A model generated the notes under the pieces. The model searched no databases. It had not been told where the DNA came from and was given only the letters and a program-made list of their open reading frames with translations. The translations under genes were made by a program, and so were the position numbers. A stretch of DNA of 53,628 nt from Halanaerobium kushneri (lineage in GTDB: Bacteria; Bacillota; Halanaerobiia; Halanaerobiales; Halanaerobiaceae): NCBI RefSeq assembly GCF_900156285.1, contig NZ_FTNC01000018.1:1-53628 (forward strand). Direction: 5' to 3'. Shown one piece after another: positions 1,935-6,402 of this stretch (its first letter is position 1; the number at the start of each line of letters is the position of its first letter).

Positions 1935-3050
1935 ATGCTTAATTTTAATCTTAGCAAAAAGAAAACAATTCTGCTGTTTTTAATTATATTATTTTGTATA
2001 TTATTCACTCTTAATACCACAGCTCAAAATTTAAAAATTCATTTTATTGATGTAGGTCAGGGAGATTCAATTTTAATTGAAGAAGCAGGAGGACAGAATA
2101 TACTGATTGATGGTGGTGACCGGACAGATAGTATAACTGCCAGGATTATTAGCTATCTAAAGGAACAGAAAGTTAAAAAACTGGATTATATTATTAGTAC
2201 CCATCCCCATGCTGATCATATAGGGGGGCTGGTTGATATAATTAACAGCTTTGAAGTGAAAACTGTACTGGACAGCGGTAAAATACATACATCTCAAACT
2301 TATGAGAACTATCTGCTCAAAATCGATCAGGAGAATATTAATTTTAAAACACCCCGACGTGGGGATCAATTTGAAATTGGTGAAAGTAAAATTACATTTC
2401 TTCATCCTGAGGAATCATTAGAGAATTATAGTTTAAATAATTCCTCGCTGGTCTTTGTACTTGAATATGATACCCAGAAATTCTTATTTACTGGAGATAT
2501 AGAAAAAAAAGTTGAAAATAAACTGCTGTCTGAATATCCTGAACTTCAGGTGAATTTGATCAAGGTACCTCATCATGGAAGTAAAACTTCCGGTTTAAAA
2601 AGCTGGATTAACAGTTTAGAACCTGAACTGGCAGTTATTCAGGTAGGGGCTGATAATCATTATGATCATCCAGCAGCAGAGATTGTGGAACTTTATCAAA
2701 AATTAGGAGCCCGGGTTTACAGAAACGACTTAAATGGTAATATTGTAGTTACAGCTGATGGAAACAATTATACAGTCAAAGTTGATCAAATTACTGATCT
2801 AAAAAATAGCAAAACTTATTCCGAAACTAAATCAGCTGCTGCTGAGAAATATAACAGTTTAATTAATATTAATACAGCCAGCGAAACTAGTTTAGACAGG
2901 CTCTGGGGTATTGGACCGGCAACAGCCGCAAAGATAATCAGTTATCGAGAAAAGAATGGCTATTTTAAAAAAATTGAAGAAATTAAAGAAGTCGATGGTA
3001 TTGGTGAAGAAAAATTTAAACACTGGCAGAACAAAATTACTGTAAATTAA
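1935..3050 (+). CDS. Secreted ComEC-like MBL protein with ComEA-like HhH tail
   Basis: Exported protein of 371 residues. A signal peptide or anchor (about residues 8-30) is followed by a ComEC/Rec2-type metallo-beta-lactamase domain (FIDVGQGDSI, LIDGGDR, STHPHADHIGG, VPHHGSKTSG) at about 33-280. The C-terminus (about 308-371, ININTASETSLDRLWGIGP) is a helix-hairpin-helix of the ComEA DNA-binding type. It lacks the membrane channel part of ComEC. Such proteins are common in Firmicutes and are often called ComEC-family competence proteins, but a role in DNA uptake has not been shown for stand-alone forms. A nuclease acting on extracytoplasmic DNA fits both domains. DUF3006 follows 50 bases downstream. 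Confidence 0.8.
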   Translation: MLNFNLSKKKTILLFLIILFCILFTLNTTAQNLKIHFIDVGQGDSILIEEAGGQNILIDGGDRTDSITARIISYLKEQKVKKLDYIISTHPHADHIGGLVDIINSFEVKTVLDSGKIHTSQTYENYLLKIDQENINFKTPRRGDQFEIGESKITFLHPEESLENYSLNNSSLVFVLEYDTQKFLFTGDIEKKVENKLLSEYPELQVNLIKVPHHGSKTSGLKSWINSLEPELAVIQVGADNHYDHPAAEIVELYQKLGARVYRNDLNGNIVVTADGNNYTVKVDQITDLKNSKTYSETKSAAAEKYNSLININTASETSLDRLWGIGPATAAKIISYREKNGYFKKIEEIKEVDGIGEEKFKHWQNKITVN

Positions 3051-3392: not shown

Positions 3393-3905
3393 TTAGTATA
3401 AAACAGGAGTAATACTGTGTCTTAAATCAAGTTCCAAATTATTAACTGAAGCTCTATAATCAGGATCTAAAATAAACTTTAAATCAAAACTTATCTGTCT
3501 GACACCTTTTTCTCCTCTAAATTTAGCTGTGGTTGAATTCAATTTTTGCCACTCAAAATCACTTTGATCAGCTTTTTTTATCATAACAGTGGTATTTAAA
3601 TTTCTATTATTTAACCGGAGATACCAATCAGCATTACTTAGAATTTCAATACTTAATCCATCTTCGATAATGATTTCTCTACTTCCACTGTAATTTGCCA
3701 TCAAAAAAGTATAGTCGATATCAGCTTTATCAACTACTTCTACTCTCTGAAAAACCGGAATCCTGGCTTCAGTCTGAACACTTCGTTCAATTAAATTCTT
3801 CTTTTTAGCAGCAGCTTCAACATAATCAGTAGTAAGAAAAAAATTCAGAAATAAAATCATAAACATTAAACTAATTCCACTTATCACTCGAAATTTAAGC
3901 TTCAT
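3393..3905 (-). CDS. Exported protein of unknown function behind a riboswitch
   Basis: Protein of 170 residues that I do not recognise. An N-terminal hydrophobic segment (about residues 8-26) ends in a likely cleavage site near VEAAA at about 30-33, so the mature protein is outside the cytoplasm. The remainder is predicted beta-rich, with alternating polar and hydrophobic residues (FRGEKGVRQISFDLKFIL) and no cysteines or obvious catalytic motif. It recalls small surface adhesin or pilin-like domains only in general character. Expression appears to be controlled by its own promoter (4049-4020) and a cyclic-di-GMP-I-like riboswitch (3985-3920), which points to a role in attachment, motility or surface properties. 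AGGAGG lies five bases before the ATG. Confidence 0.7.
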   Translation of the reverse strand: MKLKFRVISGISLMFMILFLNFFLTTDYVEAAAKKKNLIERSVQTEARIPVFQRVEVVDKADIDYTFLMANYSGSREIIIEDGLSIEILSNADWYLRLNNRNLNTTVMIKKADQSDFEWQKLNSTTAKFRGEKGVRQISFDLKFILDPDYRASVNNLELDLRHSITPVLY

Positions 3906-3919
3906 TTTATCCTCCTTTT

Positions 3920-3985
3920 AGCAGCCGGCTATCTCAAATTGAGATCCTCAGCTTTGTGTCCTTACCTCACGATAAGTTTACCTTT
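3920..3985 (-). ncRNA. Candidate cyclic-di-GMP-I (GEMM) riboswitch
   Basis: On the minus strand the leader shows the GEMM order of conserved elements: AAAGGTAAAC; a hairpin CTTATC-GTGA-GGTAAG with a GNRA tetraloop; GGACACAAAGCT; a second hairpin (ATCTC, AATTT, GAGAT); and AGCCGGCTGCT. The closing helix between GGTA and the 3' GCT strand is weak, with several wobble pairs. The element ends three to four bases before the AAGGAGG ribosome binding site, which suits translational control. The call is by eye against the known class consensus. Confidence 0.7.
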
Positions 3986-4019
3986 ATTAAAAAGAGTTTC
4001 TAACTCTTTATTAACCTTA

Positions 4020-4049
4020 ATTATATCAAGATTAGTAAATTTTTGTCAA
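4020..4049 (-). promoter_or_regulatory. Consensus promoter for the riboswitch-controlled gene
   Basis: TTGACA (4049-4044) and TATAAT (4025-4020) are separated by 18 bases. Transcription would begin near 4013, just ahead of a small hairpin (AAAGAGTT, AACTCTTT) and the riboswitch. Confidence 0.8.
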
Positions 4050-4090: not shown

Positions 4091-4120
4091 AAAAGTGGCA
4101 GATTAGAATCTGCCACTTTT
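4091..4120 (-). terminator. Terminator of alkaline phosphatase gene
   Basis: A nearly perfect 30-base inverted repeat (AAAAGTGGCAGATT / AATCTGCCACTTTT) lies 37 bases after the phosphatase stop, with A/T runs at both ends. Confidence 0.8.
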
Positions 4121-5826: not shown

Positions 5827-6402
5827 ATGAAAAAAAGTTTAGTTATCTCAATGATTCTGGTTTTAGTCTTAGCATTCTCAGGAATGGCTTTTGCTACAGC
5901 CCACACTCTTGATGTTGTTGGTGGAGGAGAAAAGCAGGAAATCTCTACCGGCAGGACAATTGATGATTACGTAAATTCTTTATTAGAATTAGCTGATGCT
6001 GATGAAGCTGGGGATATCTTCTATCCAGAAAGAAATGAAGTTAAGTACCCATTTGTACCTCTTTACAAAGAGGGAGAACTTATTGGTTATGGTAGCTGGG
6101 TAAATACAATTATCTATTCTCATCCAGAAGATTTTATTGCTGTAATTGGTATGGCAAATAATTCTAAGACTGAAGAAAGCATGGCAGTAATCAAAAAATG
6201 GAAACCTCTTGATGCAAATGACCATCATCCAGAAATGAAGCAGGAAGAGTTTTTAAGCAGATATTATGGTTTAAGTCTTAAAAGTTCATTTGATCCAGAA
6301 GTAGACATAATTTCTGGTTCTACTATTTCATGTCACACATTCTACTTTGAAATGAAAAATATGCTGCTTGTTTTTGAAAACTTTGGTCCTGAAGCAGAAT
6401 AA
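5827..6402 (+). CDS. Secreted protein with an FMN-binding-like domain
   Basis: Protein of 191 residues with a signal peptide (cleavage near AFA-TAHT, residues 23-27). The C-terminal half looks like an FMN-binding domain of the NqrC/RnfG type. The stretch PLYKEGELIGYGSWVNTI resembles the domain's early strands, and VDIISGSTIS (159-168) fits the flavinylation consensus D-x-x-S-G-A/S-T-x-S/T. Thr166 would carry FMN attached through a phosphodiester bond by ApbE. Neither an ApbE gene nor a redox partner is nearby. The gene is monocistronic, with a consensus promoter and a strong terminator, so it is probably well expressed. The domain call is by motif only; an unrelated periplasmic protein is possible. 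Confidence 0.6.
   Translation: MKKSLVISMILVLVLAFSGMAFATAHTLDVVGGGEKQEISTGRTIDDYVNSLLELADADEAGDIFYPERNEVKYPFVPLYKEGELIGYGSWVNTIIYSHPEDFIAVIGMANNSKTEESMAVIKKWKPLDANDHHPEMKQEEFLSRYYGLSLKSSFDPEVDIISGSTISCHTFYFEMKNMLLVFENFGPEAE

Follow-up and report, generated by a model that had tools for sequence, protein, structure and literature searches.

The window, by which we mean the whole 53,628-nucleotide stretch of Halanaerobium kushneri DNA that was analysed, encodes on its minus strand a 170-aa exported protein (ORF at 3393-3905) in which an N-terminal hydrophobic segment precedes a beta-rich core. A preliminary description, made from the sequence letters, had placed in front of this gene a consensus promoter, a GNRA-capped hairpin and the core and end of a c-di-GMP riboswitch that stops just before a ribosome binding site, and all of these elements are found on that strand: a sigma-70-type promoter (TTGACA-18-TATAAT with TG before the -10 element; 4020-4049) matching 12 of 12 consensus letters, a GUGA tetraloop of the GNRA type on P2 (3967-3970, from sequence and covariance alignment), the GACACAAAGC core (3960-3951), the AGCCGGCTGCT end (3930-3920) and, directly 3' of the aptamer, the Shine-Dalgarno (SD) sequence GGAGG (3911-3915), with 10 bases from the aptamer end to the ATG of the target gene. 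A promoter scan returned five promoter-like sites compared to a shuffle mean of 4.9, the site at 4049-4020 being the only one with 12/12 matches, and a similar promoter layout is seen in the leaders of G009, G003, G001 and G004 (handles with G denote genomes, G000 being that of the window). An intrinsic terminator with a 13-pair stem (4091-4120, minus strand) follows the alkaline phosphatase gene upstream and thus separates it from the riboswitch, which serves a transcript of its own. Transcription attenuation was discarded for the window leader, as there is no room for a terminator before the ATG and none was found between the aptamer and the start codon. The target gene adjoins a gene for an exported metallo-beta-lactamase-fold protein with a helix-hairpin-helix domain (1935-3050), and an exported 191-aa protein with no significant Pfam match (5827-6402) is encoded in the window and lies beside alkaline phosphatase in G009 and G003 too.

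A covariance search with 4227 Rfam families gave one match above the gathering score in the whole window, a 76-nt aptamer of compact subtype on the minus strand (3916-3991) that scores 59.7 bits (E 1.2e-11) with its best model, RF03167 (c-di-GMP-I-GGC), a margin of 0.7 bit over the gathering score of 59. RF01051 scores 58.0 bits at 3992-3917 (gathering score 35), 1.7 bits less than RF03167. Since the two models belong to one clan, the aptamer is a real c-di-GMP-I-type riboswitch of a known class, and the covariance score, fixed beforehand as the check that could refute the proposed riboswitch, was significant with both. Between 3600 and 4400, the remaining Rfam matches, of snoRNA and CRISPR type, had E values no better than 0.048 and were taken as chance. 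The key bases of c-di-GMP-I include, in the accessible part of PMC3764141, G20, A47, A48 and C92, and all four are present in the window aptamer when the RF03167 alignment is carried over to the reference numbering by our own mapping: G20 (3982) and G21 in the ligand-contact strand J1-2 (3981-3982), A47 (3955) and A48 (3954) with A49 in J2-3 (3953-3955), and C92 in J3-1 (3921). The reference pair C22-G45 is U-A here and thus compensated. With these canonical bases in place, c-di-GMP is the expected ligand. We read the "GGC" in the name of RF03167 as G20, G47 and C92; the G at the 47-equivalent position of that consensus is absent from the window aptamer, which has A at 3955, as do the other RF03167 alignments that we inspected. 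The A at 47 along with all four of these key bases argues for filing the aptamer as c-di-GMP-I and not as a ligand variant. At position 20, G is the c-di-GMP form and A the cGAMP form (GEMM-Ib). The A20 of cGAMP-sensing GEMM-Ib is absent from the window aptamer (G at 3982), and cGAMP, which had earlier been entertained as a ligand, was set aside with other ligands on the strength of G at position 20 and A at 47. A key pocket change is described in the accessible portion of PMC9481103.

The second stem had earlier been called short, and P3 of the window aptamer is indeed compact, a pattern search finding no 11-nt tetraloop receptor in it; such a receptor is common in c-di-GMP-I and not a universal requirement. 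Across the 32 aptamers examined, the receptor is absent from 10/10 with GUGA, GCGA, UUGA or GUAA loops and present in 14/18 with GAAA loops, the latter figure coming from a crude pattern that may have overlooked altered receptors in some GAAA aptamers, while in the four others (G337a, G074a, G074b and G000par a; all contain CGAAAG) the script misread the loop frame. Loop and receptor vary jointly, as they should if the tertiary contact is functional, and receptor absence in all 10 non-GAAA aptamers marks a subtype trait that gives no ground for exclusion.

The link between aptamer and protein is conserved. Family loci were collected by protein search alone, using no RNA information, and the family is present in 12/61 genomes (own genome included), 12/38 of the order and 9/398 sampled from the phylum, giving 21 loci in 20 genomes. 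At 18/21 of these loci a c-di-GMP-I-clan aptamer lies directly upstream on the same strand, a count made up of the window itself, 11/11 loci in one set and 6/9 in the phylum-sample set. The three loci that have none are L088, L089 and L090: L089 is a weak family match (E 2.8e-6), and L088 and L090 sit close behind other genes. As a background check we scanned 288 kb, of which 244 kb were 17 wider family-locus regions; these regions hold 19 c-di-GMP-I-clan aptamers, all directly upstream of a family gene, and a twentieth in the scan precedes a paralogue in the own genome. Together with the 29 matches to GGDEF that the own genome contains, the recurrence at 18/21 loci strengthens the earlier proposal that the exported protein belongs to the c-di-GMP regulon. 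Tandem aptamers occur at 6/18 loci (L022, L028, L078, L083, L084, L085). The first aptamers of three tandems (L100:6438-6523, L033:10218-10305 and L099:3291-3376) are divergent class I members scoring 36.0 to 50.7 bits, which read GGGCAAC or GGGCUAC in place of the GG(C/U)AAAC found elsewhere and have an altered facing strand too; they are possibly a variant class. Where class I aptamers are of the terminator type, a putative antiterminator shares the P1 3' flank, and pairing of this flank with the 5' arm of the terminator is supported (matched by at most 49/400 shuffles) in 7/13 loci and lacks shuffle support in 6/13 (G031, G028, G022, G017, G208, G030), so that OFF wiring of the transcriptional class I aptamers is only suggested.

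In the window leader, the closing helix had been described as weak and unusual. The first part is partly right; P1 can be extended to nine continuous pairs (3996-3988 with 3920-3912) by including the SD, and what seemed an oddity is probably the switching element. The 5' strand of this extended P1 is the anti-SD CUCUUUUUA (3988-3996), which in the minimum-free-energy fold is held, with the P1 5' strand, in a 5' competitor hairpin, P0 (3986-4015). The two computed leader folds are mutually exclusive: P0 leaves the SD free and extended P1 buries it, the mean SD unpaired probability falling from 0.72 in the free leader to 0.20 with P1 forced, as calculated by folding programs that consider neither tertiary structure nor ligand. 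Hairpins equivalent to P0 can form in G009, G001 and G004, P0 in its present form being limited to close Halanaerobium loci. The ensembles with extended P1 differ from those with P0 by +0.75 (G000), -0.74 (G009), -0.46 (G001) and +0.27 (G004) kcal/mol, a gap of less than 1 kcal/mol in all four leaders, and the SD-sequestered fold is thus slightly favoured in G009 and G001 even without ligand; by these models the balance between P1 and P0 is one that ligand energy could tip. The stability of the whole leader is not exceptional (z -1.71). At 10/10 loci whose aptamer adjoins the SD, the best pairing between 5' flank and SD side abuts the aptamer edge, a position that recurs though the flank sequences differ. 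Each of these anti-SD:SD duplexes is modestly unusual, being matched by 27, 25, 13, 66, 78, 180, 116, 34, 83 and 86 of 500 dinucleotide shuffles, and five of the 10 loci are close relatives and as such not independent.

We consider it probable that this leader is a c-di-GMP class I riboswitch repressing translation of an exported fibre-subunit-like protein. Transcription would start just after TATAAT and, with no ligand present, P0 (4015-3986) would sequester the anti-SD CUCUUUUU and the P1 5' strand, leaving GGAGG open for translation. Binding of c-di-GMP at the P1/P2/P3 junction would lock P1, which would then zip into the anti-SD:SD helix (3996-3988 with 3920-3912) and shut translation off. 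The OFF direction would follow from the ligand stabilising P1, as it is taken to do in the c-di-GMP-I class.

The protein had been presented as unrecognised, and neither Pfam nor NCBIfam contains a match above cut-off, pilin families included; when the family profile was searched against PDB sequences, nothing better than E 0.24 came up, and Foldseek gave no match that reached E 0.001. The AlphaFold2 model (5 sequences) has a beta-rich core, with a mean pLDDT of 68.5 and a pTM of 0.58, and the best row in VIA-align is FimG (Z 7.2), PapE, CsuE, CfaB, cannulae and TasA fibres ranking lower and mixed with integrins and others. This similarity is middling and would fit a common Ig-like sandwich, as Z values below 8 may mean a shared fold only. 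The model thus suggests that the target is probably a beta-sandwich, and the structure matches combined with chaperone and curli neighbours (see below) make a surface-fibre subunit or modulator its most likely role.

Both c-di-GMP classes occur in 7/18 neighbourhoods (the window and the 17 wider regions). In G001 the family gene follows an operon with curlin-repeat, CsgF and CsgG genes, directly before which lies a c-di-GMP-II aptamer (L031:93-179); the layout of this contig is the same in H. saccharolyticum MA284_T2 (L081). A curlin-repeat gene is located directly upstream of the family gene in G009 and G003. The curli link seen in G001, G003 and G009 is not obligatory, since G004 and G008 have gene and riboswitch and no curlin repeat was found in them, and we rejected the idea that the target is itself a component of curli. 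In G031, G022, G337, G074, G219 and G030 a c-di-GMP-II aptamer is placed at the head of, or inside, a run of genes for exported beta-rich proteins and chaperone-like or usher-like proteins (labels that, the PapD_N match described below aside, we gave by position, size and style of sequence), after which come the class I aptamer and the family gene. In the class II aptamers, the P1 5' strand has two possible partners, one within the aptamer and the other in the SD region (as with CUCAUUGG and CCAAUGAGGAGG), which is the usual ON layout. When this ON pairing was compared with shuffled sequence, 7/10 cases were matched by 0 to 2 of 300 shuffles and one by 11, and the comparison failed in G030 (202) and in the C14 cluster of the own genome (205 of 300), both of which look transcriptional by eye. 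With class II aptamers at the head of the preceding operon and mostly wired as ON switches, fibre operon and family gene are probably driven in opposite directions by c-di-GMP.

The own genome, whose nearest named relatives are Halanaerobium saccharolyticum strains and a Halanaerobium MAG, contains eight c-di-GMP-I sites, a ninth of 36 bits that forms a tandem with one of these eight, and two c-di-GMP-II sites. One region (L100, G000 C14:116000-130000) has, between 603 and 7128, a class II aptamer, a DUF4402 gene, a PapD_N chaperone (27.7 bits, cut-off 23), an unrecognised usher-like pair, a DUF4402/Cna_B protein, two class I aptamers and a paralogue of the target; no usher match was found in Pfam for this cluster. 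Profile comparison relates the paralogue to the target family (probability 97.4, E 1.2e-11); it was found via its riboswitch, having been missed by the family profile, and is not part of the 18/21. Elsewhere in the genome (L102:5563-5648, G000 C42), a c-di-GMP-II aptamer lies shortly after a curlin/CsgF/CsgG-type locus; the genes behind it encode an exported protein and a protein whose WxLIP_HBD match is below threshold.

If the sign of the family gene is opposite to that of the fibre operon, a bold reading would make the target an antagonist or an alternative subunit. In the push-pull circuit that we tentatively put forward, and for which the odds are rather against than for, class II would turn the curli or chaperone-dependent-pilus operon on and class I, at the other end of the cluster, would turn the family gene off, so that the family protein, made when the fibre is unwanted, might oppose the fibre by chain termination, capping or blocking of assembly, or serve as an alternative subunit at low c-di-GMP; the window would then contain an orphan copy in which the switch was retained.

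The sign could also be reversed: were the bound aptamer to use only a short P1 that coexists with P0, c-di-GMP would open the SD and turn translation on. Overlap between the P0 core (AAGAGUU/AACUCUU) and P1 in its shortest form (model positions 3-4 with 76-77) may be incomplete, and ON control would be simple for a biofilm component, c-di-GMP usually raising biofilm and adhesin genes. Against this, the predicted P0 also takes the UUUAA of P1, forcing the two inner P1 pairs alone already leaves the SD paired (0.20 unpaired), and the fibre operons already have an ON-type switch in the neighbouring c-di-GMP-II aptamers; we regard reversed control as unlikely. It is less likely still that the aptamer senses cGAMP or an unknown dinucleotide, because G20 is the c-di-GMP form and G47, the distinguishing base of RF03167, is mismatched here and in every alignment to that model which we inspected, even if the best model is a variant family that outscores RF01051 by 1.7 bits. 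A similar core in six genomes of the same genus, with proteins down to 53% identical, and the recurrence of the compact form with non-GAAA loops both speak against a decayed aptamer that has ceased to switch and acts as a plain leader, to which we give next to no weight, even with a score near the RF03167 gathering score and a compact P3 that lacks the receptor.

The riboswitch class is already known, and the parts worth following are the conserved link to its target and the bracketing of gene clusters by class II and class I aptamers. The former assigns a function class to an unnamed exported family, that of a c-di-GMP riboswitch target conserved across Halanaerobium and other Bacillota. In the latter, nature provides a case where a single cluster is flanked by two unrelated aptamers for the same ligand, apparently of opposite sign, and the question arises why evolution employed two RNAs and not one. 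Halanaerobium lives in brines and oil fields, and control of its biofilms is of practical interest. By title and abstract, the open literature on Halanaerobium riboswitches, c-di-GMP or curli had nothing on this system, subscription papers being mostly outside that scope; for class I and class II aptamers with chaperone-usher genes, or GEMM with pili or DUF4402, the open literature consisted, by its listings, of reviews and of C. difficile or Bacillus work.

Compared to c-di-GMP-I (GEMM-I, RF01051), the window aptamer has the same P1/P2/P3 junction, GNRA-capped P2 and G20/A47/A48/C92 pocket, whereas its loop is GUGA and not GAAA, its P3 has no 11-nt receptor and its P1 runs into the SD as a translational platform; c-di-GMP-I-GGC (RF03167) is its best model but has a consensus G47 that it lacks. 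The donor-strand pilins FimG, PapE, CsuE and CfaB are among the top structural neighbours of the target model (Z up to 7.2), and the cluster of the paralogue has a PapD-like chaperone, but the target has no Pfam pilin match, and Z values below 8 may reflect a common fold only. The accessible part of PMC9481103 reports 347 doublets of c-di-GMP-I and, close to genes for curlin and CsgG, tandems of glycine and c-di-GMP-I aptamers; c-di-GMP-I near curlin genes is a feature of our loci as well, with doublets at 6/21 family loci, whereas the Rfam matches at these loci include no glycine riboswitch, the class I target is a beta-sandwich family and in G001 the curlin operon starts behind a class II aptamer. 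A further parallel is C. difficile, in which, as far as the accessible part of PMC11477304 covers it, class I riboswitches are OFF and class II ON switches and linked surface genes such as PPEP-1 and its adhesin substrates are inversely controlled. There, as would be the case here, two unrelated c-di-GMP classes set linked surface genes in opposite directions. In contrast to what that part of the source describes, both classes bracket one gene cluster in 7/18 of our neighbourhoods, their platforms are often both translational, and the protein under class I control resembles a pilin and is not a protease like PPEP-1.
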